A DNA stretch of 37,131 nucleotides from a virus. Shown here piece by piece: positions 974 through 35,953 of the stretch. The stretch covers positions 1-37,131 of the IMG/VR virus record IMGVR_UViG_3300027506_000008; one strand, given 5' to 3'. A program made the position numbers and the translations under genes. How positions within the stretch are numbered: position 1 is the first letter of the stretch; every line of letters begins with the position of its first letter. Below the pieces are notes generated by a model. That model saw only the letters and a program-made list of their open reading frames with translations, ran no database searches and was not told where the DNA came from.

Positions 974-1231
974 ATGGCACTTACAGAGCAAGAAGTACAA
1001 GATAAAATAGAGATCGTATCAGAACACAAAATGATACAGGTCAGAACCGCAACGGTCATCAAACGTGATGGTACAGAGATAAGCCGCAACTTCTCACGTC
1101 ATGTTGTTGCGCCAGATGCAGATATCTCAGGCGAGAGCGCAGAGGTGCAAGCCATTTGTGCAGCGGTACACACGCAAGAAGTTAAAGACGCCTATGCAGC
1201 CCATTTAGCTGCTAACGCGTTAACAGAATAA
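974..1231 (+). CDS. Small conserved-type phage protein between fibre genes
   Basis: 85 residues, start supported by AAGGAG 7-8 nt upstream. Acidic overall, with an N-terminal 'LTEQEVQDKIEIV' helix, a short beta-like 'TATVIKRDGTEISRNFSRHVV' segment and an Ala-rich C-terminal helix ending 'AAHLAANALTE'. No family recognised. The size and position between two fibre genes suggest a small tail accessory or fibre assembly factor, but nothing in the sequence proves it. Its last codons contain one of the repeated 16-bp dyads (1210-1225), which lies 17 nt before the next start. Confidence 0.7.
   Translation: MALTEQEVQDKIEIVSEHKMIQVRTATVIKRDGTEISRNFSRHVVAPDADISGESAEVQAICAAVHTQEVKDAYAAHLAANALTE
1210..1225 (+). 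promoter_or_regulatory. 16-bp dyad, copy 1 (start-proximal)
   Basis: TGCTAACGCGTTAACA matches the dyad TGTTAACATGTTAACA at 13 of 16 positions and is followed by GAATAAGGA, which contains the Shine-Dalgarno of the fibre gene at 1243. It also encodes the end of the upstream protein. Proposed operator-like site. Confidence 0.5.
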
Positions 1232-1242
1232 GGAACTAGCTA

Positions 1243-3714
1243 ATGACCAAGGCGAGAACACTAGCAGACTTCACATCGGACGGTAGCCTCTTAGCTGATG
1301 GACAGATCACTGTGTCAGAAGTTGTTGGTGCTGCGCCACTAGCAAGCCCTACGCTCACCGGTACTGCTACAGTAGCTGGCAACCTGTCAGTTGATAGCGG
1401 CACAATCAAGCTCGACGGCAACTACCCCAATGGTACAGGCAACGTGGCGTTGGGTGACGCTGCGTTAAATACATCTATTACAGGCAACTACAACACGGCA
1501 GTTGGACAGGTCGCTGGCACGGCTCTTACTTCCGGCACAAAGAACGCATTCTTTGGGTCATATACTGCGGATGCAAACACGACAGGCAGCTATAATACAG
1601 CAATAGGTCAGGCGGCATTTAGCGCAAACACTACAGGATCAAACAATACATCTTTGGGTAATGACGCACTTTTATCCAACACCACCGCAAGCTATGGCAC
1701 GGCTGTTGGGTGGACAGCTGGGTACGCCAATACTACTGGCAACGTAGCCGCATTCGGAGCGCAAGCACTCAAGTCTAACACAACAGGCGTTTACAACACG
1801 GCTGTTGGAGGTTCAGCACTTCAATTTAGCACAACAGCTAATTACAATACCAGTGTGGGATTCCAAAGTAGTTATACAACAACAACAGGGGGTTACAACA
1901 CGGCTGTTGGTTATCAGGCTGCGTTCAGTAATACCACAGGTACTCGTAATACTGCCATTGGTTTTACTGCTGGGAAGGCACTGACCACACAAGGCTACAA
2001 CGTCTTTGTTGGCTCATACTCTGGGGATGGCGCTACTGGCACACAAAACGTAGCTGTTGGTGATGTTACGTTAAGAAATGCCTCTGGCGGTCAAAACACA
2101 GCCATTGGCGCTGAGGTACTTACCTCCATCACCACCGCATCCCGAAACACGGCTGTCGGGTTTCAGTCTATGTATGCCAATACAACTGGTACTGAAAACG
2201 TGGCTATGGGTGCGTATTCTTTGGACGCCAATACAACTGGTACTTCCCTTACGGCTATAGGTGATGCTGCAATGTCGGCAAACACTACTGCAGATAATAA
2301 CACAGCAATAGGCTCCGAAAGTTTAAAAGTTAATACGACAGGGGCATCTAATACGGCTATAGGCAAGAAGTCACTGTGGTCCAACACCACCGCGCCAGAA
2401 GGGACCGCTGTTGGTTATCAGGCTTTATATAGTAATACTACAGGATCTACCAACACGGCATTAGGTAGACGTGCGCTTTACTCTAACACGACTGGCGTTC
2501 AAAACGTGGGCTTGGGTGGAAGGGCTTTAAACTCCAACACATCTGCAAATTACAACACTGCTGTTGGCATGGACTCTCTTTATTCCAATACAACTGGGGC
2601 TAATAATACTGCTTTAGGGTGGCAGTCAATGCACCTTAACACCACCGCAAGTAACAACACTGCCGTGGGGTATCAGGCGGGGCATGCTACTACAACAGGA
2701 GCAAGCAACGCATTTTTTGGTAGACGCACGGCTGTAACTAATACGACGGGAGCAAGCAATGCGGCGTTTGGGGCGAATGCATTATCATCAAACACAACAG
2801 GTGGTCAAAATGTTGCGATAGGAGAATCTGCTCTTACATATAATAGCACCGGAATCGGAGGAACAGCGGTTGGGTATCGTGCTCTGTTCGCAAACAATAC
2901 AGGCAGCAACAATACTGCTGTGGGCAGAGATAGCCTCCTAACGGCAACAACGGCATCTGATAATGTGGCTGTTGGTAGAGAAGCAATGAAGAGAGCCACA
3001 ACTGGTTATTCAAACACAAGCATTGGTACAGAGGCATTAAAAGAAGCAACTACAGGATACCAAAACGTATGTGTGGGAAAAGACGCTGGTGGTGAAATTC
3101 GTTCAGGGCATAACAACGTCTTTATAGGATTTTCGACGGGTAATTACACCGTGGATACAACCACAGGTTCGGGAAACGTTATAGTCGGTAACTATTCACG
3201 ATCAACTGCAGTGGGAGGAGCCTCTGGCGATTACTCTATGGGTTTGGGTTATGATTTGGCTTGTGCAGGTGGGTACACAACTCTTGGACAATCAGGTAGT
3301 GACATACGCGCACAACACGGCGTTGCGACTTGGGCAACCGTATCAGATGAGCGTTACAAGAAAGACATTACTGATTCTACAGCGGGTCTGAGCTTCATCA
3401 ATGATCTGACGCCTCGTACCTTTAAGTATAAAAACTTAGGTGAGCTACCTGATACCTTTAATGCTTACAAAGAAGGTTCAACAGACACCTTTAAGAATAA
3501 CTACACGAACCACGGTTTTATAGCACAGGAGGTTAAGACAGCTATTGATGCTCACCCTGAGATTAAAGATGGCTTCACTCTGTGGGATGATCGTGAGGAT
3601 GGCTCTCAAGAGGTAGCAGAGGCAGCGTTAATACCTGTCTTGGTTAAAGCACTACAAGAACTTTCCGTAAAGAATGATGCTCTTGAAGCACGTATCGCTA
3701 CTTTAGAAGGATAA
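1243..3714 (+). CDS. Repeat-rich tail fibre with C-terminal S74 intramolecular chaperone
   Basis: 823 residues; start has AAGGA 9 nt upstream. Residues ~50-680 are about three dozen units of 14-20 residues around 'SNTTGxxNTAVGxxAL', the pattern of left-handed beta-roll or helix fibres (YadA head-like, trimeric). Residues ~695-823 form an endosialidase-type chaperone (Peptidase_S74): 'SDERYKKDI' with Ser701 and Lys706 in the Ser-x4-Lys spacing of the self-cleavage dyad, then 'NHGFIAQEV' and a C-terminal coiled coil 'ALQELSVKNDALEARIATLEG'. In known members this domain folds the trimer, then cuts itself off before the Ser. Expected to be a long trimeric receptor-binding or host-contact fibre. 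The DNA repeats could change copy number by recombination. Strong call for domain type; receptor unknown. Confidence 0.9.
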   Translation: MTKARTLADFTSDGSLLADGQITVSEVVGAAPLASPTLTGTATVAGNLSVDSGTIKLDGNYPNGTGNVALGDAALNTSITGNYNTAVGQVAGTALTSGTKNAFFGSYTADANTTGSYNTAIGQAAFSANTTGSNNTSLGNDALLSNTTASYGTAVGWTAGYANTTGNVAAFGAQALKSNTTGVYNTAVGGSALQFSTTANYNTSVGFQSSYTTTTGGYNTAVGYQAAFSNTTGTRNTAIGFTAGKALTTQGYNVFVGSYSGDGATGTQNVAVGDVTLRNASGGQNTAIGAEVLTSITTASRNTAVGFQSMYANTTGTENVAMGAYSLDANTTGTSLTAIGDAAMSANTTADNNTAIGSESLKVNTTGASNTAIGKKSLWSNTTAPEGTAVGYQALYSNTTGSTNTALGRRALYSNTTGVQNVGLGGRALNSNTSANYNTAVGMDSLYSNTTGANNTALGWQSMHLNTTASNNTAVGYQAGHATTTGASNAFFGRRTAVTNTTGASNAAFGANALSSNTTGGQNVAIGESALTYNSTGIGGTAVGYRALFANNTGSNNTAVGRDSLLTATTASDNVAVGREAMKRATTGYSNTSIGTEALKEATTGYQNVCVGKDAGGEIRSGHNNVFIGFSTGNYTVDTTTGSGNVIVGNYSRSTAVGGASGDYSMGLGYDLACAGGYTTLGQSGSDIRAQHGVATWATVSDERYKKDITDSTAGLSFINDLTPRTFKYKNLGELPDTFNAYKEGSTDTFKNNYTNHGFIAQEVKTAIDAHPEIKDGFTLWDDREDGSQEVAEAALIPVLVKALQELSVKNDALEARIATLEG
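1435..3210 (+). repeat. Protein-coding repeat array (NTTG/NTAVG units)
   Basis: About three dozen imperfect in-frame repeats of roughly 42-60 bp built on codons for N-T-T-G-x-x-N-T-A-V-G. Synonymous codons are mixed between units (aacacaaca, aatactact, aatacgaca), so the protein rather than the DNA is what is conserved. Forms the shaft of the fibre protein. Confidence 0.85.
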
Positions 3715-3718
3715 GACT

Positions 3719-3934
3719 ATGGAACTAACAGCAGAAGAAATCGCACAGAACTATACAGCAATGGGTCACTCTGTTGAGCTGTTGAACGCTGGCAAACCAG
3801 AAGACATGGAAGACGCCGATTGGACAGATACAGTTGCTCGTAACGTTGAGCATCTGCAACTCATGGTGGCAAAGGACTACTGGACAACAGAGGACATGAC
3901 CGCCGCTAACGCTGCAATCGCAGCTAACTCTTAA
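3719..3934 (+). CDS. Small acidic protein of unknown function
   Basis: 71 residues, starting 4 nt after the fibre stop with GAAGGA as ribosome site inside the fibre gene's last codons. Sequence is acidic and helical ('AEEIAQNYTAMGHSVELLNAGK', 'ARNVEHLQLMVAKDYWTTEDM'). No family recognised. The tight coupling to the S74 fibre suggests co-expression with it, perhaps as a fibre accessory factor; this is inference only. Confidence 0.7.
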   Translation: MELTAEEIAQNYTAMGHSVELLNAGKPEDMEDADWTDTVARNVEHLQLMVAKDYWTTEDMTAANAAIAANS

Positions 3935-3957
3935 CCCCCCGCCAAAAGGAGATCAAA

Positions 3958-4176
3958 ATGGCAGAAAACAAAAACACCATCACGATCAACGGTACCGAAT
4001 ACACTGAAGACCAACTAACAGATCAACAGAAGGTGATGGTAAATCACGTCTCTGACCTCGACCGAAAGATCGGCTCAACCCAGTTTAATCTGGATCAGCT
4101 GAATGTAGGCAGGGAAGCATTTGTTAACATGTTAACACAATCGTTGGAAACACCAGCGCAGGAGGCAGCTGAATAA
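3958..4176 (+). CDS. Small coiled-coil phage protein (DUF6447-like)
   Basis: 72 residues; strong AGGAG 7-8 nt before the ATG. The N-terminus 'NTITINGTEYTEDQLTDQQKVMVNHVSDLDRKI' followed by a helical stretch ending 'REAFVNMLTQSLE' resembles small phage proteins that I associate with DUF6447; this is memory-based and unverified. Function unknown. Its 3' part carries the only perfect copy of the 16-bp dyad (4122-4137), 38 nt before the next start, and its stop overlaps that start (TAATG). Confidence 0.7.
   Translation: MAENKNTITINGTEYTEDQLTDQQKVMVNHVSDLDRKIGSTQFNLDQLNVGREAFVNMLTQSLETPAQEAAE
4122..4137 (+). promoter_or_regulatory. 16-bp dyad, copy 2 (perfect palindrome, intragenic)
   Basis: TGTTAACATGTTAACA is a perfect 16-bp palindrome inside the 3958-4176 gene, 38 nt before the ATG at 4176. 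It lacks the GA flank seen after most other copies. Confidence 0.5.
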
Positions 4177-4409: not shown

Positions 4410-4412
4410 GCT

Positions 4413-6237: not shown

Positions 6238-6253
6238 TGTTAACACGTAAACA
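6238..6253 (+). promoter_or_regulatory. 16-bp dyad, copy 3 (start-proximal)
   Basis: TGTTAACACGTAAACA, 14 of 16 matches to the dyad, followed by GAAAGG, which leads into the Shine-Dalgarno of the lysis gene at 6269 (15 nt from dyad to ATG). It lies in a 35-nt non-coding gap, so there is no coding explanation. Confidence 0.6.
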
Positions 6254-7472: not shown

Positions 7473-10067
7473 ATGGCCGTCTTTTCCATAAAATCGTTTG
7501 GCGGCATAGCCCCTGTTGTACCCCCGCGTTATCTGCAAGATAACCAAGCGCAGACAGCCCTAAACTGTCCTGTTTTCCGAGGGAGCATTCAACCTTTAGC
7601 TGATTTAGGCGCATCGGTGGCAGACTTGCCTAAGACTGGAACTATCAAGTCGTTGTATCGGTTTGGGCAAGATACTCTTTCAGATAATAATTACTGGTTT
7701 CATTGGAACGCAGATGTAGATGTGTGCAGAAGCCAAATCGCAGGAGATGTATCGGAGTGGACATTTTTCACTGGCGATGGCGGTCCCAAAGCCACGTACA
7801 ACTCAATAGCGTTGTCGGGGTCGAACTACCCTACTGTTACTCGGCCTTTGGGCATTCCCGCACCGGTAGCACCAGCCGTCGCTTCGCCAGATACTTTTAC
7901 GCCCACGGCACACGCTGCTTCTGTCACCTTAACTGCCAACCATATAACCAATCTTACAACAACTTACGGTATTATGATTAGCACTGTAGCGGACGATTCT
8001 AGTGACTATACAACCATTAGCTTGTCAGGAACGATTGACGCCTCAAGCGTAAAGAACGCCATTAACAGCGCACTGTCCACAGTCTCCGCGTCGGTAGATA
8101 GCGGCACAGTCAAAATAGACACAACCGCTACGGGTGACACTGCCAAATTGTTTGTAAAATTTCAAACAGGCACAACACCAAACACCGAGGGAACGTTTTC
8201 TTATGACAGTAGCCCAGACCTACAGGCTACAGGTACAACAGATACTGATGCGTTTTTGGTACTTACTGACGCTGAGATCGGGTCAATTACGTCGGGGGAT
8301 AAATTACACATCAGCACTGACGGCGGCACTTGGATTAATGATGTTGCTTATACGTTTAGTGGAACTTTAACAGCCGCTGCGTTTGCGACGCATTTAGATA
8401 CTCTTCTTACGAATAAAGTTGAGGCAACAGCCTATGGGTCGTCTGTAGTATTGACCCCCCACACTCAAGGCGGTGGGGCATCGGATTTTATTACATACGA
8501 GCGTAAGACCATCAACCAACTGGAAAACGAAGAGGTGGTAGCCGTAACAATTACAGAAACAGGTTCAGAGTCTGCTGGCCCAGCTAGGTTGTTTATAACT
8601 CAAGCGCACATGGACGCCATCGAAGGCCAGTATCTTGCGCTAAGCGTGAATGGCGCGGAAAACATTCTATCGGTATCAGACCCCGCGTTCCCTAGCACGT
8701 TTAGAACGTTTTCGACGTATGGGATTAGCACTGAAACTCACGGGTCCATTGAACCCTTCGCCATCGTGTCGACAACGTCTGTGGGGTCGTCCGCTACCCT
8801 TCGTGTTAGAACCGGTGATTACCCCACTGAACCAACGTTTACGACGCAACAGGCCGAGGGGTATGAGGATGAGGACGACACGCTGGAAACGCGTGTTTAC
8901 GCGTACACATATGTAAATAAGGAAAGTGGGTTTGAATTTGAGTCTGCACCGTCTGGTCCTTCCGGTTCTGTAGACGTCCGCGACGGTCAGACCGTAACAC
9001 TGTCAGGTTTTTCTGGCGTGCCAGAGGGAGATTACATTATTACTCACAAGCGAATTTATCGCGCTGTTCGAGGCGTTTATTTGTTTGTCGAGGAAATAGG
9101 CATTGCGGATGCAAACTTTACAGATGACGTAGAACCAGACAACCTCGGAGAAGAACTGTTTACACTAACATGGTCGGCACCGCCCCAAACGCTTAAAGGG
9201 CTGACCAATCTACCAAATGGTTTGATGGCTGGTTTTAGTGGGCGAGACATATATTTCTGTGATCCCTACCACCCTCACGCATGGCCCGAACAGTATATCC
9301 AGACGATTGATTATCCTATCGTGGGGCTGGGTCGCATGGACACAACACTGGCGGTTCTTACCAAAGGCACCCCTTATTTCGTCCAAGGAACTCACCCGCT
9401 CAACATGGCTGTGGTAAAGTCGGACCTTGAGCAAGCATGTGTGTCTAAAAACAGTATTGTTAGTTTAATGGGTGGGGTAATGTACGCTGCGCCAGATGGG
9501 CTAATGCTTCTTTCCCCCGGCGGTTCGCGCATCGTTACGGAAAACTTATTTGACTTTACGCAATGGCAAACTTTTTTTAAGCCCGAAACAATCCACGCGT
9601 ACCAACAAGATAATAAGTATATCGCGTTTTATAACAACGGCACGCAGAGCGGCGGGTTTATTTTTGACGTCCGTAGCGGTCAGTTTATTCTACACGACAT
9701 GTATGCCGACGCTGGCTACCATGATCTTTTGAGAGACAAGTTGTTTTTAGCGGTCACCGAAAGCAACACCAACAAAGTTAAGCCTTGGGGTTATGGCAGC
9801 TTAAAGTCATACACTTGGCGCTCTAAAAAGTTTACTCTCCCACAGGTTATGGGTTTTTCTTGTGCGCAGTTGGAAGCCGAAACGTACCCAATAACGCTCA
9901 AGTTCTACCTAGATAACACGTTGTACCACACGCAGACGGTGCAGAACCGCAACCCGTTTAGACTACCTGCTAAGGTTGGACGCGATCTTGAAATGCAAGT
10001 TGAGGGGTCAAGCGAAGTGTTTTCTCTATCAATCGCCAACTCAATGACGGAGCTTGCAAGTGGCTAA
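7473..10067 (+). CDS. Large virion structural protein (tail/portal-distal type)
   Basis: 864 residues, AGGAG before the start. The N-terminus 'MAVFSIKSFGGIAPVVPPRYLQDNQAQTALNCPVFRGSIQPLADL' matches what I recall from large structural proteins of Bcep22- and HMO-2011-like podoviruses. The middle (~140-480) is Thr/Ser/Asp-rich and beta-type, with two similar halves ('ISTVADDSSDYTTISLSGTIDASSVKNAINSAL' and 'ISTDGGTWINDVAYTFSGTLTAAAFATHLDTLL') that look like a repeated domain. The C-terminal part includes 'GLMAGFSGRDIYFCDPYHPHAWPEQYIQTIDYPIVGLG' and 'VMYAAPDGLMLLSPGGSRIV', suggestive of a beta-propeller or tail-tube ring. No enzymatic motif seen. Likely part of the tail hub or baseplate; the exact position is unknown. 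Confidence 0.75.
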   Translation: MAVFSIKSFGGIAPVVPPRYLQDNQAQTALNCPVFRGSIQPLADLGASVADLPKTGTIKSLYRFGQDTLSDNNYWFHWNADVDVCRSQIAGDVSEWTFFTGDGGPKATYNSIALSGSNYPTVTRPLGIPAPVAPAVASPDTFTPTAHAASVTLTANHITNLTTTYGIMISTVADDSSDYTTISLSGTIDASSVKNAINSALSTVSASVDSGTVKIDTTATGDTAKLFVKFQTGTTPNTEGTFSYDSSPDLQATGTTDTDAFLVLTDAEIGSITSGDKLHISTDGGTWINDVAYTFSGTLTAAAFATHLDTLLTNKVEATAYGSSVVLTPHTQGGGASDFITYERKTINQLENEEVVAVTITETGSESAGPARLFITQAHMDAIEGQYLALSVNGAENILSVSDPAFPSTFRTFSTYGISTETHGSIEPFAIVSTTSVGSSATLRVRTGDYPTEPTFTTQQAEGYEDEDDTLETRVYAYTYVNKESGFEFESAPSGPSGSVDVRDGQTVTLSGFSGVPEGDYIITHKRIYRAVRGVYLFVEEIGIADANFTDDVEPDNLGEELFTLTWSAPPQTLKGLTNLPNGLMAGFSGRDIYFCDPYHPHAWPEQYIQTIDYPIVGLGRMDTTLAVLTKGTPYFVQGTHPLNMAVVKSDLEQACVSKNSIVSLMGGVMYAAPDGLMLLSPGGSRIVTENLFDFTQWQTFFKPETIHAYQQDNKYIAFYNNGTQSGGFIFDVRSGQFILHDMYADAGYHDLLRDKLFLAVTESNTNKVKPWGYGSLKSYTWRSKKFTLPQVMGFSCAQLEAETYPITLKFYLDNTLYHTQTVQNRNPFRLPAKVGRDLEMQVEGSSEVFSLSIANSMTELASG

Positions 10068-12380: not shown

Positions 12381-12433
12381 AAAGGGATTGTTTTAATGTA
12401 TTCTTATGTGTTAACGTGTAAGCAGAAGTAGTT
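12381..12433 (+). other. Non-coding gap before the GNAT-like gene
   Basis: 53 nt of A/T-rich sequence with TTGTTTTAATGTATTC, which could hold weak promoter elements, then the dyad at 12409-12424. No clear -35/-10 pair was identified. Confidence 0.4.
12409..12424 (+). promoter_or_regulatory. 16-bp dyad, copy 4 (start-proximal)
   Basis: TGTTAACGTGTAAGCA, 13 of 16 matches, followed by GAAG, 9 nt before the ATG at 12434. It is intergenic, so the match is not caused by protein coding. With copy 3 it shares the longer block ATGTGTTAAC at its left side. Confidence 0.6.
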
Positions 12434-16195: not shown

Positions 16196-19100
16196 ATGGC
16201 GACGTATTTAGAGCAAGTTCGCGCAGCCTTTCCCGACCTAGACAAACAGGGTTATAGTGACGAAGAAGTTGTCATCTGGCTTGCTGATAAAAATGGTGCG
16301 GACCGCCAAGAGATTGGTGAGTTTCTTGGAGTGTACGACCCGAACCAAGGAGATTTTTCTCGTGGGGTTTCGTCTGCAATCGACGCCACGCAGGGGATGG
16401 CCTATGGCGCTGGTGCTTTGTTGGCAGACACCGTTGGCGCTGACAACGCTAGAGACAAAATGCTCGGTGGTTATCGAAGAAACATGTCGCAGATTGAGCT
16501 GCGCAGTAAGCCTACCGACAGCTACGAAGGAATTAATAACTTCAGCGATGCCGCCGCCTTCGCAAAATACTACTCAGGCTACGGGTTAGCGCAGGGCGTA
16601 CAGGCAATTGCCACTGGTGGCTTGGGGGGCATAGTAGGTAAACAGGTCGTCAAGCAGGGACTAAAACGAGCGGGTAAAGACTTACTCGAAGATAGCTCAC
16701 GCACTGCCTTAGAAAAGGGTGCTAAAGTTGGTAGCTATGGTGGGTTTGGTTCGCAAGCTGTTGGTACAGAGCTAGGTGCCACATACGGCGGAGCCGTTGA
16801 CCGCGCCTCGGAAACCGGACAGAGTATCGACGATATTAATCTTGCAAAAGTTTACGGGTACGGCACCGCAGCCGGTCTTGTGGAAGGCGTCGCCGACGTT
16901 GCCACAGCGGGTTTGGCTCGCTTCGGACCAGCTAAAAACCTCCTAGAAACCGCTGCCAGCTCGCGCAAACGTAGTACAAACGTTCTGACTGGCGCAGTTA
17001 AAGGCGCAGCGATAGAAGGTGCTACCGAGGGTGTTCAGACAGGTCTTGAAGATTTAGGTGCAGGATACTCTGCGGAAGAAGCCCGGTTCTTTGATCCAAC
17101 TTCTGTCTTGGCTGGGGCCATAGGTGGCGGACAATTAGGTGGCGTCGGTGGGCTTTTACGAACTCCGCAACAAAGCAGTACGGATCTAAACGAGACTGTA
17201 GAAGTAGCCAAAGCCAACGTCGGCGAACAGTTACAGCTGAACCTCGATGACCCGTCGACGCCGCAGCAGCTTGAGGCGCAACGCGCCGAGCAGCAGAACA
17301 AAGCTGAAGCCATAAATAAACTTAACAAGTCCCGACAGGAAGCTGAGAACGACGCGTTCCGCGTCGAAGCGCAATCGTTCACAAAGAAAGACTTCAAAAA
17401 ACAACTCGCCGCTGGGCTAGAGGCAACTGTGGATGATCGTACATCTGATTTAGGTCGAGAATTTCTTAGCGAGTTGAATACCCCTACCGATGAAAACCCT
17501 ACAGGTATTATTGACCCAGACGACGTTAAAGCTGCACGTACTAAATTTGTAAAAAGAAAAACTGACGAGCAAACAGGTAAGCTCAACGAAGCATACATAT
17601 CTGAAATACAAAGACGGATAGCTGAGAAAGCAAAGAACCAAGATCAGATCGAACTGGACTTCGATCAAAAGACACAACAAGAAAAACAACAGCTGGAGCT
17701 AGATAAGCCAGCCCTCAGTGGTACAAAAGCTATCGAGCAGACTGAGCGTATGTTTGGCAAAGACTGGGTTGCCAGTGGGAACTATGAAGCCTTGGAAGCT
17801 GCGGTAAACGCACCCAAATTTAACCGCAAGAAGTACGCTCAGGCGTTGAATGAAGCAGTTAACTCACCTGTTAACGCGTCAACAGAACAAGCGTTAGAAG
17901 GTCCAAGGGGGCGGGTCCAAGAAGCGATTGAAGCTATTGCTCCTGCACTAGAAAGAGCGCCGCAACAAAAAGCAGTCTTCGAAACGTTTACAAACGCGTT
18001 GTTTAACAACCAAATGGATAAGTACATTCAAGTAAACATACGAAAAGGAAAAAAATACTACGCCCTAAATTACCAAGAGTTAGCCGATGATGCGGGGATA
18101 ACAGGCAAGAACAATCGTACCACCGCCAACAATGCCATGAAGCGCATTATGCCGAAGCTAAACAAAGCGCTTGGCTTAGAGGAAAATGACAGCGGGGGTT
18201 TACAAAAACTACTTGCAGAGCTTGCGGCAGAACGAAAGCTTGAGACACAGCCGCAAGCACCGGGGCAATCTGAAACGAACGTTGGCGACGACGACATAAG
18301 GACTGGTGCTAAGCTAGACGACGTTGCCCCAGATAAAATTGAACAGACCCTTAAACAGATGCCAGCTGTGGGAGCAGACGGGCCAGCAACACGCGGTACG
18401 GTTACCAGAGCTGACGCCGACGAAGTGTTGGACGCTCAAGAAAACCTAGATGGAACAGCCGGTGAGCAGTCCGCGTTTGATCTAGGTCGAAGCACGGTTA
18501 TATCTGCGGGGTCTGGTAATTATAGGGGCGTAAAGAAAGAAGACAAAGCCTTTACGCGAAGCCTTGTAAGCTCCAACGAAGAGGTAGCTGCGGTGGCTGC
18601 TGAGCGAAACCAGAAAATAGATGACGAAGTTGAGTCGAAGAGCGCCCTCCTTAAAGGCGTATGGGACAGCGGCAAGGCTCCTGACACAATGTCGTTTGTC
18701 GATCTGAGCGCAGCTGACAAGCGCGAAGTCTATTTCATAGTGCGCCAATACTTAGATGACCAGCTTGACCAAAGCATAAGTTCAGAAGCCGCTCTGGAAC
18801 AAGTTCGCGCAGGAATTGCGAAGATAGAAACAACCTTACCTACAGCGGAAGAGAGCGGTACCAATGAAACAACAACTCAAGATGCCGAACCGAGGCGATC
18901 TAATGAAGCTGAAGAAGGGGTTCGACGAGAACGTGCTGCCAATCCTACAGGAGATGGACCAAGCGGGACAGGAAATGTCACCCAGAGCAAAGAAGCTGTT
19001 ACAGGCGAGCAAGAAAACAAAACAGTCGTAGAGACTAAACCCGTTGAGAAAGCTGTTAAAAAGCCAAAAAAGCCACCCGCTAAGAAAGCTTCTAAAAAGC

Positions 19101-23583: not shown

Positions 23584-23590
23584 CCTACCA
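23573..23590 (+). repeat. GTGGGACAC repeat 4 (18-bp form)
   Basis: CCGTGGGACACCCTACCA, identical to 23453-23470, and overlapping the last codons and the TAG of the integrase gene (23585-23590). Confidence 0.6.
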
Positions 23591-24667
23591 GTCTAAGGCC
23601 GCTAGAGATTTTAGTCCGTCCGCTGCCAAACCGCGTCGTTCGACGCCCTTGGTGTATATCTCCGACGTCCGCGCTTCTGTGTGGGACATGACAGACATTA
23701 TCTGGTGTTGAGTGCTACCCGCTTCGGCCATCAGTTCAGCCATGGCTTTGCGCACCCCATGTGACGAACGCCCGTCTAGTCCTGCGGCTTTACACCAGCG
23801 TTGAACTCTAACACGCAGCGCCTCAACAGAGGTAAACGGTAGTCCTTTTTCGTTAAGAATGTAACTCGACCCGACCACGGTAGACAGGCGCGTGGCTTCA
23901 ACTAGCGGTGGGAGCATGGGGATCGACACAAACGCAGAACCTTTTTTGCGCGGCTGGAACTCTAGCCACAGCTGGCCGTTCCTAGTTTTTTCTTGGCCGC
24001 GCCCAATCCATAGTGCGTCGCCAATACGACAGGCGGTGAATGCTTGGATCGTCAACCACAGATGAGCAGTTGTACCACGAGGGTGTTTTTCTTTGAAGGC
24101 TTTAATGTCTGCGGCGGTCCACGGTTTAGCGCCACCTTTAGGATTTTTGTTTATGGCTCCGATACCCGCAGCTGGATTGTGACCTATTTCGTCACGCTCC
24201 ATAGCCCATGCGTACAGAGCTTTGATTGATTTGATTAGGTTGTCCGCTGCGCCGGGGCGACTAGCCCAAGCATCTCGTATCTCCACAAACACGCTTGTGG
24301 GGGCATCCATATCACAATCGCCGTATCGAACGTCGTCGTCGCCGCGATAGTCACACATGCGGGTAAGGACGCTTCGACGTTGTTTTAGAGTATCTGCTGA
24401 CATTTGCTTGGCGGCGACCATGTCTCCTAAGAACTTTAAGTATCGAGCTACTAACCAATCGAGGGAGCGTGTTACTTCGGTCTTCTCGGCAACAAGCTCC
24501 CAAACTTCTCCTGCCCGTGCTGCGTAGTAGTGATGTAGAAAATCAGGGTGGGTCGGACCCACAGGCATTGTAGTTCGCTTGGTTTTATCGCCTTCCTTGC
24601 GCACACGGTAGCGCTTTGAGCCGCTCGGGGTTTTATCCACTACTAGCCCTGCAAGTTTGACTTTCAA
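23585..24667 (-). CDS. int: Tyrosine recombinase, phage integrase
   Basis: The frame allows a GTG at 24688, but a TTG at 24667 has a perfect GGAGG (24673-24677) 5 nt upstream and follows the previous stop by 2 nt, so I take TTG; 360 residues. N-terminal ~60 residues are an arm-binding-like basic domain ('SGSKRYRVRKEGDKTKRTTM'), then a SAM-like core-binding domain (~70-165). Catalytic set is complete: Arg214 in 'TACRIGDAL', His303 and Arg306 in 'SSHGVRKAM', His329 in 'VMSHTEA', Tyr338 in 'SEIYTKG'. It should catalyse site-specific integration and, with a directionality factor, excision. It is the last gene of the leftward operon, next to the repeat array. The phage is therefore probably temperate. 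Confidence 0.93.
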   Translation of the reverse strand: MKVKLAGLVVDKTPSGSKRYRVRKEGDKTKRTTMPVGPTHPDFLHHYYAARAGEVWELVAEKTEVTRSLDWLVARYLKFLGDMVAAKQMSADTLKQRRSVLTRMCDYRGDDDVRYGDCDMDAPTSVFVEIRDAWASRPGAADNLIKSIKALYAWAMERDEIGHNPAAGIGAINKNPKGGAKPWTAADIKAFKEKHPRGTTAHLWLTIQAFTACRIGDALWIGRGQEKTRNGQLWLEFQPRKKGSAFVSIPMLPPLVEATRLSTVVGSSYILNEKGLPFTSVEALRVRVQRWCKAAGLDGRSSHGVRKAMAELMAEAGSTQHQIMSVMSHTEARTSEIYTKGVERRGLAADGLKSLAALDW

Positions 24668-24669
24668 TA

Positions 24670-24864
24670 TTACCTCCGCGCAGCCCACTGTTTGGGCTTC
24701 GGACTTTGATCCAGAACGGACTCGGTGTCCAGTTTTTTCTGGTCTGTTTCGACGCGGACGCTGCCATCCTTACCCACAGACACGGCGCAGATAGATAAAC
24801 CTGCGTCCTGCGCTGCTTCGATGGCTCGCTTAATCGCGGCTTTGGTTGTGACAGCTGCTGGCAT
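24670..24864 (-). CDS. Small protein directly upstream of the integrase
   Basis: 64 residues; start overlaps the upstream gene's stop (ATGA) and the stop is 2 nt before the integrase TTG. Sequence: Ala-rich helix ('TTKAAIKRAIEAAQDAG') then a short beta hairpin 'ICAVSVGKDGSVRVETD' and a polar C-terminus. I recall similar small proteins next to integrases of alphaproteobacterial phages. A role as excisionase or integration accessory is possible but no HTH is visible. Its last codons supply the integrase's Shine-Dalgarno, so the two are translationally coupled. Confidence 0.7.
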   Translation of the reverse strand: MPAAVTTKAAIKRAIEAAQDAGLSICAVSVGKDGSVRVETDQKKLDTESVLDQSPKPKQWAARR

Positions 24865-28309: not shown

Positions 28310-28325
28310 TGTTTACATGTTAACG
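28310..28325 (-). promoter_or_regulatory. 16-bp dyad, copy 6 (start-proximal)
   Basis: On the minus strand CGTTAACATGTAAACA, 14 of 16 matches, followed by GATAGG, 12 nt before the ATG of the primase-helicase at 28297. Intergenic, so unconstrained by coding. Confidence 0.6.
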
Positions 28326-28332
28326 TGTTGTA

Positions 28333-28350
28333 GTCGGGGCGAACCCCGAC
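28333..28350 (-). promoter_or_regulatory. Strong UUCG-loop hairpin between SSB-like and primase genes
   Basis: GTCGGGG and CCCCGAC pair perfectly (7 bp) around a 4-nt loop that reads UUCG in the leftward transcript. No T-run follows, so it is not a standard terminator. It lies 18 nt after the SSB-like stop and just before the dyad; it may protect the upstream mRNA 3' end or reduce read-through. Confidence 0.6.
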
Positions 28351-28368
28351 CACATGGGACAGGGACTT

Positions 28369-29295
28369 TTAGTCTTCGAAATTTAAGTTTTCTAAGGCCG
28401 CGTCGATGTCATCGTAATCAACATCTGACTGGGTCTCAACCTTGGGTTCTGGTGCTGGCGCTGGCTCGTCAACTTGAACCTCTGCCTTCGGCGGTGCTAC
28501 GACTTCTTCCACGGCCTCTTGCAGCTTTGGAGACTTCTTGGCTGGCGCTGGCGCTGGCGCTGGAGCGTTGGAGACATGTTCCCCTGTGGTGGCTTTGCCG
28601 CCAGACACACCAGTGATTTCCTCAACCAAAGTTTTTTGGTCTGCTAGTACAGCTGTAACGTCAGCTAACTCTTCTTCTGTGATAAAGCGCTCCGGTTTGA
28701 ATGTTACTGCGAACGCGGCGTTTTTGTCGAAGCCGATACGAGTAACGACGTGGCTTGGGCCTACATTACGCTGAGCCAAATATTTGCCGTACTCGTTGAG
28801 GTTTTTGAGTGAGCCGGGAGGGACGCGAAGCAACATAGGATCATTTATTTGATCTGCCGCTGCCACAGCGAGACGCATGTTGTCGTCACACGCTTTGCGC
28901 TTCTGACCGTTCTTGATTCGGGAACCCCAGATGTTGTGCGGACAGGCTGCGCATGTTTTGCACTGAGCGGTCTCCGCATCTGCCGCTGGCTTTATACCAT
29001 CGTGCGAGTAACAATCGGGGGCGCGGTTGTCGCCGTCCGAGTAGTCTTCGGTGTAATAGACCTTAGACTTTTTAGGGTTAACGGATACGATCACGGCCTC
29101 GAAAGACCGCACCGGATCACCATGCTCGTTAGTGATGATTTCTTTCTCGCCACCTCTTACAATCGTGAAGTCTTTACCCTTTAGGGAAATGACAGGGAAA
29201 CCGCCTTCGCTGGCGGCGCTTTGGAATACGTTTTCTACTTTTACACCTTGAAGGTGTGCTGGTAGATTTGCATCTAGGCTAACCATCTCGTTCAT
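28369..29295 (-). CDS. SSB-like single-stranded DNA-binding protein
   Basis: 308 residues; GGAG 7 nt before the ATG. A central Cys cluster 'AQCKTCAACPHN' with a further Cys in 'RKACDDNMR' and one before in 'APDCYSHDG' could bind zinc, as in T4 gp32-like phage SSBs. The C-terminus is a Pro/Ala/Glu linker ('APAPAPAPAKK', 'DEPAPAPEPK') ending in an acidic tail 'DYDDIDAALENLNFED', the classic SSB protein-interaction tip. Placed before the primase-helicase, it should coat the displaced strand and recruit replication proteins. Assigned from layout, not from an OB-fold match, so the family is not certain. Confidence 0.75.
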   Translation of the reverse strand: MNEMVSLDANLPAHLQGVKVENVFQSAASEGGFPVISLKGKDFTIVRGGEKEIITNEHGDPVRSFEAVIVSVNPKKSKVYYTEDYSDGDNRAPDCYSHDGIKPAADAETAQCKTCAACPHNIWGSRIKNGQKRKACDDNMRLAVAAADQINDPMLLRVPPGSLKNLNEYGKYLAQRNVGPSHVVTRIGFDKNAAFAVTFKPERFITEEELADVTAVLADQKTLVEEITGVSGGKATTGEHVSNAPAPAPAPAKKSPKLQEAVEEVVAPPKAEVQVDEPAPAPEPKVETQSDVDYDDIDAALENLNFED

Positions 29296-29304
29296 ATTAT
29301 TCTC

Positions 29305-29709
29305 CTATTTACGTCTAAAGTTTACGACTTGCGTCGCGGATGTGTTTACTCCGGGCACGTTGTCCCCGTTGATTTCTTGGTGCTGCTGGTGCGCAGTCTT
29401 GTTCACGCGGTTCTCGACAAGTTCCCACGCATCGTTTTCTTTGACGTAACCCCAGAATGCTTCTGGGTCAGCCACCGTCGCCGTCGAACGTGTTGACATG
29501 TAAGCAGTACCGACGTCGCGAGAAGACACGCTGTCGATATCACGTTCGTTCATACGCCGAAGAAATTCAACTTCGATCTTGTCCTGCATGTACTTGTCAC
29601 CGCTGTCATCTTGTGAGTACGCCGCTTTGCGTTGCGCTCTGCGGTCACGAAGCCCAACAAAGACTTTTATGAGATGGCCGTCAGCCAACTCGCATATTTT
29701 TCTCTCCAT
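29305..29709 (-). CDS. Conserved-type phage protein of unknown function
   Basis: The frame opens at 29730, but the ATG at 29709 has GGAGG 6-7 nt upstream; 134 residues, overlapping the AlpA-like gene by 29 nt. Charged N-terminal half ('RDRRAQRKAAYSQDDSGDKYMQDKIEVEFLRRMNERDIDSV'), then 'DPEAFWGYVKENDAWELVENRVNKTAH' and the ending 'PGVNTSATQVVNFRRK'. I recall the 'FWxYVKENDAWELVENRV' phrase from many phage replication modules, always without assigned function. Probably a replication or recombination accessory because of its place just before the SSB-like gene. A dyad copy lies within it (29491-29506). Confidence 0.7.
   Translation of the reverse strand: MERKICELADGHLIKVFVGLRDRRAQRKAAYSQDDSGDKYMQDKIEVEFLRRMNERDIDSVSSRDVGTAYMSTRSTATVADPEAFWGYVKENDAWELVENRVNKTAHQQHQEINGDNVPGVNTSATQVVNFRRK
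29491..29506 (-). promoter_or_regulatory. 16-bp dyad, copy 7 (intragenic)
   Basis: On the minus strand TGCTTACATGTCAACA, 13 of 16 matches, inside the 29305-29709 gene. It lacks the GA flank. Confidence 0.35.
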
Positions 29710-29887
29710 TTTCTTCCTCCTTTTTGGCATTTAGCCATTGGTCAATATCAGATTCGTCCCAACGCAAGACCTTCTGCGAGACCCTAATCGGCTGGGGGAA
29801 ACTGTCTTCTCTTCGTCGTAGTGCAGGGAGCGCTGCTTTAGTGATCCCTAGCTTTTCCGACACTTGTTCGGGCTTTAGTAAGTTCAT
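29681..29887 (-). CDS. AlpA/MerR-like HTH regulator or excisionase
   Basis: The frame opens at 29902, but the ATG at 29887 has GAAGG at ideal spacing; 68 residues. 'MNLLKPEQVSEKLGITKAALPALRRREDSFPQPIRVSQKVLRWDESDIDQWL' is a textbook winged-helix AlpA (HTH_17) pattern: HTH at ~5-25, wing 'FPQPIRVSQKVLRW' and the 'DIDQWL' closing helix. Such proteins are phage transcription activators or recombination directionality factors. A weaker dyad sits 18 nt before the start, so it may control itself. It is a good candidate either for the missing excisionase or for the protein that reads the dyads. Confidence 0.85.
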   Translation of the reverse strand: MNLLKPEQVSEKLGITKAALPALRRREDSFPQPIRVSQKVLRWDESDIDQWLNAKKEEENGEKNMRVG

Positions 29888-29905: not shown

Positions 29906-29921
29906 TGTACACCTGTCAACA
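29906..29921 (-). promoter_or_regulatory. Weak dyad copy before the AlpA-like gene
   Basis: On the minus strand TGTTGACAGGTGTACA, 12 of 16 matches, 18 nt before the ATG at 29887 in a 58-nt gap. Contains GTGTACAC, an 8-bp perfect palindrome, and also TTGACA, which resembles a -35 box. No fitting -10 box was found. Confidence 0.4.
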
Positions 29922-32486: not shown

Positions 32487-32532
32487 CAAAGTCTTTCTAC
32501 CAGACCTATAGTCGCTGGCGTTCTACATATTG

Positions 32533-33198
32533 TTACTTACCACAATGCTCACACAAGGACTGGCCCACAGGGCACCAATTTTTGCATAAACCCGAAGGTT
32601 TCGGTAGCCATTTATCTTCTTGGTACGCGTATGCTACCCGCGATAGTCGCGGAAGAAACTCATTCCAGATTTCTGGTAGCTGCTCACGCGTGAACATCTC
32701 TTTGTCAAACTTTGAGACTTTTAACCAGATAAACCCAGTCACCACTTTGTTAACCCAAGGATACATTGCAAAGGCCAACGCTGCAAATAATTTTAATTGG
32801 TCGTTATCAGGACGATGTTTTCCCGTCTTCCAATCGAGCAAGTACGCGGTATCGGAGCCGACAACTCCGATGTCTATAATCCCACGCACCCACACATCCT
32901 TCGCCATCCATTTGGTCTGGCGAAAGTCTTTAGTAAGCGCGACACGTTCTTCGACAACGCGCTTACCTTCATACGACAGTATCTTTTTAACGTACCGTCC
33001 GTACTGCTCCATTTCGGGGGGCAATGGCTTCTTACCATTGGCGAAGTCTTCAAGTGCTTTATGCACTTTATTGCCCCAAATTGTAGCCTCGGTCTGTTTC
33101 TCAACAACTTGTTTTGTCACACGCGTCAGCTGAAAGCGCTTCGGGCATGTTTCAAACGCAGTAAGCGCTGAGTAAGACCAAGGTTTGGTTAGTTCCAC
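32533..33198 (-). CDS. Cas4/RecB-like PD-(D/E)XK exonuclease with Fe-S cluster cysteines
   Basis: 221 residues. Motifs: 'YSALTAFETCPKRFQL' (Cys18), 'WGNKVHKALE' (His46, Glu50), 'VRGIIDIGVV' (Asp109), 'LLDWKTGKH' (Asp122, Lys124), 'DQLKLFAA' (Gln134), and 'CKNWCPVGQSLCEHC' with Cys205, 209, 216 and 219. The one-plus-three(four) cysteine layout is the 4Fe-4S pattern of Cas4 and AddB/RecB-type nucleases. There are no Cas1/Cas2 genes or arrays near, so it is best read as the phage recombination exonuclease (T7 gp6 or lambda exo role). Overlaps the upstream gene by 10 nt. Confidence 0.92.
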   Translation of the reverse strand: MELTKPWSYSALTAFETCPKRFQLTRVTKQVVEKQTEATIWGNKVHKALEDFANGKKPLPPEMEQYGRYVKKILSYEGKRVVEERVALTKDFRQTKWMAKDVWVRGIIDIGVVGSDTAYLLDWKTGKHRPDNDQLKLFAALAFAMYPWVNKVVTGFIWLKVSKFDKEMFTREQLPEIWNEFLPRLSRVAYAYQEDKWLPKPSGLCKNWCPVGQSLCEHCGK

Positions 33199-33740
33199 GG
33201 TGGTACACCTCCTTCAAATATTTCAGTGTCGATAATTTCCCAGAACTCTAACAACAGCTCCGCTCTAGTTTCTGTGTCGAGCCGTTCAGCCGTTCGGCTG
33301 TCGCGGTGCTTGTCCAAAAACAACAGGCGTCGCTTCGCCCACCCATGCTCTAGGTCAGAGACCCACTTTAGGCGCGAGTGGTAGTCCGTCTCGCCGTACA
33401 ACTCTTCTGCCTTAGTGATTGCACGTGCTGCTCGTTCGCGTCGTTGCTGCTGAACATATCGCCCGTTGACGCGACGTTGTATATTTTGCACCTGCTCCCA
33501 CGCCAAGTCTTCTTTGCTGAAGCTGTCGCGTAAACCAACAAGGTATTGCACAAATCCATCTATGTTAAACGCATAGGCTTCAATTAACGGCTTCAAGAAC
33601 TCGTGCGTCTTTGGCAAAAGAAATATGTTTGGGTCTTTAGCAAAGGTCTGCATGTACTTGTCCGTCAGTGTCAGCCATTTTTTGATATTGCTGGGATTTC
33701 GCAGCAAGTAATCAGTTGTTTCTCTTAAATCGGGTTCCAT
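33189..33740 (-). CDS. Hypothetical protein upstream of the Cas4-like nuclease
   Basis: The frame opens at 33824, but the ATG at 33740 has GGAG 7 nt upstream; 183 residues. Helical and charged with many aromatic residues ('LRNPSNIKKWLTLTDKYMQTFAKDPNIFLLPKTHEFLKPLIEAYAF', 'WVSDLEHGWAKRRLLFLDKHRDSR'). No motif recognised. It is co-translated with the nuclease and overlaps the gene before it by 16 nt, suggesting a recombination/replication partner role. No function is assigned. Confidence 0.65.
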   Translation of the reverse strand: MEPDLRETTDYLLRNPSNIKKWLTLTDKYMQTFAKDPNIFLLPKTHEFLKPLIEAYAFNIDGFVQYLVGLRDSFSKEDLAWEQVQNIQRRVNGRYVQQQRRERAARAITKAEELYGETDYHSRLKWVSDLEHGWAKRRLLFLDKHRDSRTAERLDTETRAELLLEFWEIIDTEIFEGGVPPWN

Positions 33741-33952
33741 CCCGCATCTCCCATAAAATTGTACCGTTGAGGTGTTCCATAGTTTAGAGAGTTTTTGGGT
33801 GGGCCGAGTGGTGGGTTCTGCCAATTGGACGCGGCGTTCAACGCATACGCCGCCAGTGCTGGCGTGTTGCAGACGTAAGTTCTAACAGGAGAATACATCG
33901 CAAAATATTTACTCTTGATGTGGCTCCATGTGTATACGCTTACAGGTTTCAT
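33725..33952 (-). CDS. Small hypothetical protein, first of its sub-operon
   Basis: 75 residues; GGAG 8 nt before the ATG. Sequence is Asn/Pro/Tyr/Ala-rich ('MYSPVRTYVCNTPALAAYALNAASNWQNPPLGPPKNSLNYGTPQRYNFMGDAG'), with little predicted structure. It follows the 81-nt gap downstream of the polymerase and overlaps the next gene by 16 nt. Function unknown. Confidence 0.6.
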   Translation of the reverse strand: MKPVSVYTWSHIKSKYFAMYSPVRTYVCNTPALAAYALNAASNWQNPPLGPPKNSLNYGTPQRYNFMGDAGWNPI

Positions 33953-34033
33953 TTTCTTTTCTCCAAGAACTTACTTACATGTATATAACATGAGCTGAAC
34001 ATAAGTGCACACATTTTAACACCTTTCAAGTAG
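33953..34033 (-). promoter_or_regulatory. Candidate promoter/operator gap after polymerase gene
   Basis: 81 nt without a gene, one of the few gaps in the leftward operon. On the minus strand it contains TTGAAA, a weak dyad (TGTTAAAATGTGTGCA at 34006-34021, 12 of 16) and TTATATACATGTAAG. A sigma70-like promoter could be built from these but the spacing is not ideal. Confidence 0.35.
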
Positions 34034-35953
34034 CTATTTTGCGTCGCCGTATGTATCGGCTATATCGCCTTCGCTCCATGTCACTAGCTCGGGCCACCAC
34101 TCAGGCGGTGTCCTCATTACTTGTTGTACCGTATCTAGCATTATCTCAGCTTGATCTTCTGGCACGATGTACACTAATTCGTCATGTACCATTAGCGCAG
34201 GGTTCATTTCCGTGAGCCTCTGAACTGTTAAGGCGTTGTCGGCGATTACGCACCGAGCCAAGTGCTGCACAATGTTCTCGTCTATTTTACCAGCGTATAT
34301 TCTGGCCTTGTTTCGGCCATGTCCGTAGACGAACTCTTTGCGGTTATCGTCTTCGTTTACCTCTGTCCGCAAGTCTGGGTACCGAATCAACCCCTTGGGA
34401 GTGCGTAATCCTTCAGCTACTGGCACCACCATACCCCACGGATCGACTGCGTTGCCCTCCGCACCTCGCATAATCGTAGGCAATGCGGCGTGGCATGTGC
34501 GCCAGCCTTTGGTAATTTCGTAGTATTCGTCACGCCATTTGTCGACGATGTCCCTGCTCTCGTCTTCAGTGATGTCGACGCCGCCCATCAGCTTAGCAAC
34601 CTTTTGAAACGTGATGTATCCAGCACCAAAGCCAAGCCCTAAGTGAGCCACTTTACCCACCTGACGTTGGACTTTCGTCACTTCGTCGTAGTCGATGTCG
34701 TAGAGGCGGCTGGCGAAGTCTTTGTATAAATCTGCCTTCTCAGGCTCCGCTTGGTACATCGCCACGCTTGATGGAACCTTCCACAAGAAATGGTTCACAC
34801 GTAACTCAATGCCTGACAAGTCGGCGACGACGACCTTGTGGCCTGGAGGGGCGATCAACGACCGACGTAGTGCGTCCGATGGACGGGGGTTGTACGGGTT
34901 CACGCGTGGTAAATTCTGTGGGTTATAGCCCCAACCAGACCACCGGCCTGTCGTGTCTGCGCCGTAATACTTTAGCGGGATCGGTACCTTCTTCGTCGGG
35001 TGCGAGTTGGATGCGTCCATGAACGCTTGAATGCGTGTTTGTAGAATTGTGGACTTCGCGTCGAGCCGTGCTGCGGCAGCTGTGGCGACGAGCGGGTCAT
35101 CGTGTTCCTGCAACTCAAGAAAGCCTTCATCTGTCTTAGCCAGCGCCGGTATCTCTTTGCCCGTATTAGGAGAAACTTTAGTTGGAACGTCGACCTTTAT
35201 GGTTCGCAGGAACGCTGCGAACTTAGCGGCGGACGACAACACCGTCAACGCTGCGGCGGCGGCTTCGTCATCGTCCATATCGAAGTCGTAGACATCCATT
35301 TTACGCGCAGCCTCAACGAGCATTGCCTTTTTGCGAATACCTTCTTCTGTTAACGTGTTAGCAAGTAACGTAGCGTCACTTTCGAACGTGGGTTCCACAA
35401 GCATACGGATGGTCATGTCTACGAGCTTGACCTCTTCCTTGCGTGTCTGCGGTATTAACTTGAGCAACAGCCCATAGCACTGATCGACGTCGGCGGCGTT
35501 GTATACCCGCATCTCATCTATCTCTTCATCTGAGAAGTCACACAGGTTCTTGCCCTTGGTGGCGATGAGTGCCGACTGATCTTTGTAGCCCAGCCCGTAG
35601 TGCGCGACGAGTTTGGCGAGGGACAACCCAACATCCTTCGCGTGGATAGGTCTCGCCATTGCAAGTGTACAACCCCAGAGCTTTGGCTTTACGCCAAGTC
35701 GCCACGATAAAATCATGCTATCGAAGCCTGAGAGGTTGTGTCCGACAACCCAGTATTGTGACCAGTCCACGTTATTGCAGTAGTCGATGACCGCCTGCTC
35801 GCCAAAGACGACGACGGTGGGATCGTTCCCGAACTTAAAGGCGCAGCTGATAATCTCTGTGTCTTCGTGCATACAGTACGCGATGGGTGACATCTTAGTC
35901 AGCGAGTGACCAACAGCCCAATATGTTTCTAGGTCAACGGTAGCTATTTTCAT
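34034..35953 (-). CDS. Family A DNA polymerase with 3'-5' exonuclease, Leu at the Phe762 position
   Basis: 639 residues; GGAGG before the ATG. Exonuclease: 'DLET' (Asp7, Glu9), 'GHNLSGFD' (Asn73, Asp78), 'YNAAD' (Tyr151, Asp155). Polymerase: motif A 'ADLSGIELR' (Asp378, Glu383, Arg385; canonical DYSxIELR with Tyr replaced by Leu), motif B 'RQVGKVAHLGLGFG' (Arg430, Lys434), motif C 'VHDEL' (His590, Asp591, Glu592). Aligned to E. coli Pol I motif B (RxxxKxxxFGxxYG), Leu438 occupies Phe762 and Phe442 occupies Tyr766. No 5' nuclease, and the 220-330 linker/thumb is short without zinc Cys. It should be the phage replicative polymerase working with the primase-helicase. Confidence 0.95.
   Translation of the reverse strand: MKIATVDLETYWAVGHSLTKMSPIAYCMHEDTEIISCAFKFGNDPTVVVFGEQAVIDYCNNVDWSQYWVVGHNLSGFDSMILSWRLGVKPKLWGCTLAMARPIHAKDVGLSLAKLVAHYGLGYKDQSALIATKGKNLCDFSDEEIDEMRVYNAADVDQCYGLLLKLIPQTRKEEVKLVDMTIRMLVEPTFESDATLLANTLTEEGIRKKAMLVEAARKMDVYDFDMDDDEAAAAALTVLSSAAKFAAFLRTIKVDVPTKVSPNTGKEIPALAKTDEGFLELQEHDDPLVATAAAARLDAKSTILQTRIQAFMDASNSHPTKKVPIPLKYYGADTTGRWSGWGYNPQNLPRVNPYNPRPSDALRRSLIAPPGHKVVVADLSGIELRVNHFLWKVPSSVAMYQAEPEKADLYKDFASRLYDIDYDEVTKVQRQVGKVAHLGLGFGAGYITFQKVAKLMGGVDITEDESRDIVDKWRDEYYEITKGWRTCHAALPTIMRGAEGNAVDPWGMVVPVAEGLRTPKGLIRYPDLRTEVNEDDNRKEFVYGHGRNKARIYAGKIDENIVQHLARCVIADNALTVQRLTEMNPALMVHDELVYIVPEDQAEIMLDTVQQVMRTPPEWWPELVTWSEGDIADTYGDAK
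35348..35363 (-). promoter_or_regulatory. 16-bp dyad, copy 8 (intragenic)
   Basis: On the minus strand TGCTAACACGTTAACA, 14 of 16 matches, followed by GAAGAAGG, inside the polymerase gene (codons 198-202). The flank looks like the start-proximal copies although no start follows. Confidence 0.4.

Follow-up and report, generated by a model that had tools for sequence, protein, structure and literature searches.

A dispersed 22-bp palindrome as a candidate operator network in a lineage of podophage-like viruses

Introduction

Mycobacteriophages provide the best-known examples of dispersed operator sets that silence an entire phage genome, and lambda-type cI repressors use palindromic dimer operators overlapping promoters, lambda itself having few operator sites, at two promoters. 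Cluster A mycobacteriophages (L5, Bxb1) carry 20-30 repressor sites genome-wide, some on promoters and most not, with a consensus that differs between heteroimmune subclusters (PMC6550527), and the sites of L5 are 13-bp, asymmetric, oriented and monomer-bound elements whose reversal loses repression (PMC9283540). Here we describe a dispersed palindromic element in a 37,131-base virus record classed as linear (IMG/VR record IMGVR_UViG_3300027506_000008; this whole stretch is called the window below), which we read from its gene content as a podophage-like virus. The element recurs over both arms of the window and in related records, and its copies probably act as operators or roadblocks of one phage-encoded dimeric DNA-binding repressor.

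A preliminary description of the window had proposed a stoperator/operator network of the L5 kind. The network itself stands, in that the sites are dispersed, kept at orthologous places, linked to gene starts as well as found inside genes, and accompanied by an integrase gene in many records; the strict analogy is not supported, since the element is near-symmetric and L5 sites are asymmetric and lose function on reversal (PMC9283540). Like the cluster A stoperators, many sites of one consensus are dispersed, at promoters and elsewhere, and the consensus appears to be lineage-specific. Unlike them, the site is a near-symmetric 22-bp palindrome, more often linked to gene starts, and it occurs in podophage-like genomes. 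Because the sites are near-symmetric, we did not file the system as a member of the cluster A stoperators. In contrast to lambda cI, the set extends over the genome, some copies preceding structural genes and others lying within genes, and a cI-like HTH_3 domain was found in none of 24 records, which are fragments, compared with 14 of 14 controls. The 16-bp core resembles parS, as quoted in the preliminary description, in being palindromic, starting with TGTT and ending with AACA, but its inner bases differ, and the ParB_N domain was found in none of nine fragmentary records. Full-text literature searches returned no description of the motif or of the exact 16-mer.

Results

A near-symmetric 22-bp palindrome recurs in the window and its relatives

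The 16-mer of the preliminary description matches the window at eight places with ≤3 mismatches, just as had been reported, compared with a mean of 0.16 and a maximum of 2 in 100 dinucleotide shuffles of the window. Because an A at position -3 and a T at +18 are also conserved, this 16-mer proved too narrow, and we refined the element to a 22-bp palindrome, AnnTGTTNACRYGTNAACAnnT, with two free symmetric positions. In sequence logos, the A at -3 is present in 98% of 56 gene-start sites and in 90% of 42 others, and the T at +18 in 68% and 76%, respectively. Searched with the refined pattern, the window gave ten sites with ≤1 mismatch and one with 2 mismatches, eleven in all, three of which (8894, 32681 and 29906) had been overlooked. 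The copies, given by their 16-bp core, are as follows.

1210..1225, plus strand: candidate operator TGCTAACGCGTTAACA, 17 bp before the 823-amino-acid (aa) tail-spike-like gene (1243-3714)
4122..4137, plus strand: candidate operator, perfect copy TGTTAACATGTTAACA, located in a 72-aa gene, 38 bp ahead of a 77-aa gene
6238..6253, plus strand: candidate operator TGTTAACACGTAAACA, located 15 bp ahead of a 129-aa gene that precedes the endolysin gene
8894..8909, plus strand: intragenic copy TGTTTACGCGTACACA, which departs from the refined pattern at one position
12409..12424, plus strand: candidate operator TGTTAACGTGTAAGCA, 9 bp before the acetyltransferase-like gene (12434-12898)
17869..17884, plus strand: intragenic copy TGTTAACGCGTCAACA, in the 2366-aa giant gene
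28310..28325, minus strand: candidate operator CGTTAACATGTAAACA, which follows closely on a GC-rich (guanine- and cytosine-rich) hairpin and lies 12 bp ahead of the DUF927 gene (25322-28297)
29491..29506, minus strand: intragenic copy TGCTTACATGTCAACA, in a 141-aa gene
29906..29921, minus strand: candidate operator TGTTGACAGGTGTACA, 2 mismatches, upstream of the AlpA-like gene and after TTGACC-N17-TAATGT
32681..32696, minus strand: intragenic copy TGTTCACGCGTGAGCA, in the exonuclease gene (32533-33198)
35348..35363, minus strand: intragenic copy TGCTAACACGTTAACA, in the DNA polymerase gene (34034-35953)

Across 22 records, the refined pattern TGTTNACRYGTNAACA was found 39 times exactly, 98 times with ≤1 and 165 times with ≤2 mismatches, compared with means of 0.017, 0.43 and 7.75 (maxima 1, 6 and 19) for up to 60 scrambled palindromes. 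Many of the records analysed, sisters included, are, by identities and sites, near copies of one another (G031/G032/G036, G020/G021, G023/G024/G029), so that counts across records are not independent; four were covered over 20,000 bases (G007, G010, G027, G036) and one over 40,000 (G031). The records that carry the motif range from 39% to 54% GC. The 16-mer had a match with ≤3 mismatches in each of the first 21 records, a single one in G006, G008, G011, G020 and G021, and a reversed control pattern gave one match in G004 and one in G008. Among 26 motif-bearing records, four (G006, G008, G011 and G016) have no site with ≤1 mismatch. Non-overlapping sites with ≤2 mismatches in long records number 18 in G009, 18 in G015, 14 in G014 and 6 in G003.

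The copies inside genes also exceed what codon use would produce, a control that the preliminary description had itself proposed and that came out in favour of the sites. In 35 window genes, five intragenic copies matched the 16-mer with ≤3 mismatches and seven matched the refined pattern with ≤1, compared with means of 0.79 (maximum 4) and 0.62 (maximum 2) in 200 synonymous-codon shuffles. A different fate met the idea that a following GA orients the element: six of the eight window sites do carry it, but only 15 of the 98 sites in the 22 records, so that GA is not a general orientation mark. Judged from its sequence, the element is a near-symmetric, dimer-type site and not an oriented one.

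Sites are kept before certain genes

We counted sites with ≤2 mismatches before the genes of 23 families of our choice in motif-bearing records. Gene calls were greedy open reading frames (ORFs), so some starts are wrong; the labels TerL, portal, ATPase and capsid are backed by PHROG matches, and 'small terminase' (TerS) is a label from gene order with no PHROG match. In ten families at least half of the records have a site before the gene; in three families such sites are rare, and in the other ten there is none. The positive families are DUF927 (13/17), the acetyltransferase (11/13), the portal (9/10), the gene after the portal (8/10), AlpA (6/6), an AAA-type ATPase (6/8), TerS (6/9), the capsid (7/11), the 77-aa gene (8/13, at 35-45 bp) and the pre-endolysin gene (5/10), and in most of them the distance from site to gene is nearly fixed. 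No site was found before the helicase (0/15), polymerase (0/13), TerL (0/10), p308 (0/16), p344 (0/9), p392 (0/9), giant (0/12) and p181 (0/8) genes or before two further families. Scrambled palindromes preceded the same gene families in 0-1% of cases.

The AlpA-like gene is a well-sampled example:

29681..29887, minus strand: AlpA-like DNA-binding protein, whose own promoter carries a site

The family test, with its greedy ORF starts, counted AlpA in only six motif-bearing records; among the first records, 12 of 12 have an upstream site with ≤2 mismatches. A wider set of 80 AlpA loci collapsed to 46 distinct upstream regions, 32 with a site and 14 without, and the upstream regions of G034 and G035 (L140, L172) contain no good site.

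Intragenic copies are kept as well. Of 14 aligned motif-bearing records (window excluded), 13 retain the site inside the exonuclease gene with ≤2 mismatches; of eight records of sister lineages, none does. This suggests selection at the level of DNA, though the peptide, similar in the sisters, also changes there. Six of 12 records retain the copy in the 72-aa gene, and G000 and G002, with 50% and 41% GC, have it in identical form.

Some sites overlap or adjoin promoter-like elements

Upstream of AlpA, every one of the 32 distinct regions that carry a site also has a TTGA box, followed after 15-19 bp by a hexamer (by eye mostly TAATCT or TAATGT) that overlaps the left edge of the site. The register differs elsewhere, again as judged by eye: before the post-portal gene, TTGACA lies within the site and the hexamer 17 bp further on (TATTAT in G005, poorer in other records), and before the ATPase gene the site lies between the two boxes. 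In several families the gap from site to ATG is about 9-21 bp and by eye contains a ribosome-binding site, so that the transcription start must fall within or before the site. Such a place suits a repressor or roadblock and not an upstream activator. Upstream of DUF927, many records have a GC-rich hairpin (about 28333-28350 in the window) that ends just before the site; its sequence differs in many relatives, and it is likely the terminator of the upstream operon.

At the two free symmetric positions, Watson-Crick pairs were found in 30 of 98 sites (28.8 expected, p 0.42), and the commonest combination is a mismatch, A/A (22). Counting G-U pairs, the number rises to 50 of 98, an excess over the 38.6 expected whose significance was not computed.

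Sister lineages keep core genes, and most carry other palindromes

Nine sister records (G022-G030) keep AlpA (71-81% identity), DUF927 (72-74%) and the helicase (72-77%), and G025 also keeps TerL (84%) and the portal (74%), yet none has a site with ≤1 mismatch. At 2 mismatches the refined pattern matches twice in G024, once in G026 and twice in G029, and the 22-bp pattern not at all. A TGTACTCTCTTGAACA-like 16-mer occurs once, at most twice, per record at sister AlpA promoters, and we take it as a decayed site.

Other palindromes are present instead. With ≤2 mismatches, AGTCCACNGTGGACT occurs in G022 (3), G023 (2), G024 (5), G028 (1), G029 (2) and G030 (2), and AGTATCNNNGATACT in nine copies in G025; G026 and G027 have neither. 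One or the other lies upstream of DUF927 in seven of the nine records, in four of them with 2 mismatches. The sisters also carry a gene of 154-167 aa, termed R, which adjoins the TerS gene in G024 and G025. A palindrome precedes the R start by 35-39 bp at 11 of 11 loci, which comprise five distinct upstream sequences and three palindrome types: AGTCCACNGTGGACT accompanies R at 87-100% identity, AGTCCAANTTGGACT R at 36-37% and AGTATCNNNGATACT R at 30-36%. The R gene and the palindrome thus appear to change together across three sister types, and R is the likely regulator in these lineages. No DNA-binding domain was recognised in R, which has weak matches to the helix-turn-helix (HTH) family phrog_16239 (E 0.0098) and to CtsR_C (0.074), and its structure model is of low confidence, with a predicted local distance difference test score (pLDDT) of 46. 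R loci lie at 839-1339 in L206, 563-1060 in L177 and 6309-6770 in L208.

Candidate binders in the window's lineage

Neither binder put forward in the preliminary description is supported. The AlpA-like protein (29681-29887) is unlikely to bind the sites because the sister records keep it and lack them; moreover, the AlpA proteins of motif-bearing G001, G013, G002 and G003, at 57-67% identity, diverge further from the window's than those of the sisters do. The 103-aa HTH-like protein (24864-25175) was found by tblastn in just 4 of the first 22 records, window included, and in three of four motif-bearing records added later, all of these records being fragments. A third candidate is encoded in the right arm of the window:

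33189..33824, minus strand: RP family protein, 179-211 aa, candidate binder

RP is present in 13 motif-bearing records and as a fragment in G018, and in none of eight sister records holding both flanking genes. It is absent from motif-bearing G002 and G003, and one of 13 RP genes has its own site with ≤2 mismatches.

By place and co-occurrence the best candidate, if a doubtful one, is the p181 family (phrog_1448), encoded at the early/late junction outside the window. It occupies the junction in eight motif-bearing records and is absent from G024 and G025, the sister records reaching that region. The AlphaFold model of p181 (pLDDT 77.8) recalls a winged helix in its helix order and hairpin. 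Foldseek returned no match below E=0.001, with MarR, PadR and IscR rows at E>1, and VIA-align gave Z of at most 4.4 with unrelated proteins on top, so no fold was assigned. Profile comparison of p181 with R and with the junction protein of G007 detected no homology.

Gene content and signs of a temperate life style

The left arm of the window (plus strand) encodes a tail-spike-like protein, small genes, endolysin, internal virion protein, tail fibre, an acetyltransferase-like protein and the 2366-aa giant, and the right arm (minus strand) integrase, DUF927, AlpA-like protein, helicase, nucleases and DNA polymerase. Scans of the window genes turned up no terminase, portal or capsid; these are carried by related records of 53-59 kb. 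The giant protein (16196-23296) has a DarB-like antirestriction region and a weak ART-PolyVal match. The nearest named phages are distant: the window polymerase is 33% identical to that of Rhizobium phage RHph_TM3_14A, and the capsid of relative G009 43% identical to that of the same phage. One gene is a sign of a temperate life style:

23585..24688, minus strand: tyrosine integrase

A Pfam search found an integrase in 11 of 27 records, and a PHROG match added G015. Dissimilar tyrosine integrases in the window, G009 (21189-22259) and G015 (28344-29603) share one locus between the giant gene and DUF927, and those of G009 and G015 have no BLAST match to each other. Lysogenic silencing by the sites is plausible.

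Palindromes in other phages

RHph_TM3_14A has 24 exact TTACC-N6-GGTAA dyads in its first 50 kb (L090, MN988472.1 1-50000), compared with 0.01 expected, and 26 in the whole genome; the palindrome is GTTACC-N6-GGTAAC, several copies lie directly after stop codons, and the dyad at 20131-20146 follows TTGACA-N15-TATATATG. CRP-1 (L005) has a small dyad family, GTCCAACGTTGGAC, with four exact GTCCA dyads, and HMO-2011 (L203) has three AGTCCG-N4-CGGACT dyads; both resemble the R-lineage palindrome. Palindromic networks may be common in such phages. A palindrome scan of T7-like phages with phrog_1448 relatives gave top clusters of 4 in Vanda (first 22 kb), 5 in 4AB-P and 7 in LNA10, compared with 2, 3 and 3 in one shuffle each, and the LNA10 clusters are GC-rich; our judgement is that these three have no network. 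In G003 the same scan did not raise the motif above the shuffle (4 vs 5). KPP25 (first 50 kb) and two contigs of Burkholderiales metagenome-assembled genomes (MAGs) yielded no clear family, and Rollin has weak dyads.

Discussion

Our reading infers repression, roadblocking, dimeric binding, placement at the heads of transcription units and a phage rather than host origin of the binder. Each 22-bp palindrome would be bound symmetrically by a repressor dimer. At the heads of early and late transcription units, where the site lies on the promoter or start point, binding would block initiation, and inside genes the bound dimer may be a roadblock to elongation. One regulator could in this way hold both genome arms silent, in lysogeny or as a delay during infection.

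A number of observations weigh against this reading. The gene-start sites are not fully symmetric (T at -2 in 75%, A at +17 in 43%); promoter-like box pairs scoring at least 9 of 12 accompany 30% of 56 sites and 11% of shuffles, a moderate enrichment; and DUF927 has no evident -35 box upstream. Sites seldom precede p141 (2/16), the exonuclease (2/14) or the internal virion gene (2/19). Records of the AT-rich subgroup (G002-G006, G008) contain 0 to 4 sites with ≤1 mismatch. No integrase was found in five AT-rich records searched or in nine sister records. When species genomes were scanned twice with the helicase, no close prophage turned up, and the two helicases detected are distant (47-48%) and encoded on the Burkholderiales-type MAG contigs L209 and L210. 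As for p181, it is absent from motif-bearing G007, where the junction is covered, it is present in G008, which has no site with ≤1 mismatch, and in eight records no site with ≤2 mismatches lies a short way upstream of it.

Promoter elements specific to the phage, or activator sites, at which a phage factor switches on early and late genes, would also explain why sites precede particular genes in both arms at a nearly fixed distance from the ATG, and the hairpin just upstream of the DUF927 site together with the lack of a -35 box there suits them. We consider this unlikely, since a near-symmetric element conveys little directional information, the 9-21 bp between site and ATG are too short for a downstream start plus a ribosome-binding site, several copies are intragenic, and the position of the sites relative to sigma-70-like boxes varies between several registers. 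Neither nine records nor 14 controls gave a match in a search for the T7-type single-subunit RNA polymerase family. That the binder is a host-encoded regulator or nucleoid protein is less probable again: it would fit the failure to name a phage binder and the search for a cI-like HTH_3 domain, which found none in the 24 fragmentary records, but in sister phages that share the core genes other palindromes are found, and these change along with the phage gene R, which bears its own copy; in addition, the same motif occurs in records of widely differing GC content.

Two further explanations look to the shape of the element. A centromere-like, packaging or replication role would draw on the length and outer TGTT/AACA shared with the quoted parS and on the dispersal over both arms; the differing inner bases, the ties to gene starts and the search for the ParB N-terminal domain, which found it in none of nine fragmentary records and in 10 of 14 control genomes, make it very improbable. 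Most improbable of all, to our mind, is a hairpin acting in RNA near the ribosome-binding site. The sites are self-complementary and lie just before the ATG of several genes, and pairs including G-U are in excess; yet Watson-Crick pairs are not, the commonest combination cannot pair, the G-U excess may reflect one class of sites carrying TTGACA, and both the intragenic copies and the overlap with -35 boxes fit DNA.

With a phage-encoded dimeric repressor as the preferred reading, the sister lineages invite a more tentative proposal, to which we give less than even weight: that they swapped the whole operator network together with the junction regulator gene, including replacement by a gene of no recognisable sequence relationship (p181 versus R type). 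Such an arrangement would amount to an immunity-group system comparable to the one in cluster A mycobacteriophages, with dimeric palindromes and new regulator families as its components, and more distant phages such as RHph_TM3_14A, which has its own 26 palindromes, may share it. If true, the finding of such a system in symmetric form, in phages quite unlike the mycobacteriophages, with several sister palindromes and a small gene that varies in parallel with one group of them, would allow the evolution of immunity specificity to be tested at the sequence level. It would also open a way to study gene regulation in phages that are known for the most part from environmental DNA.

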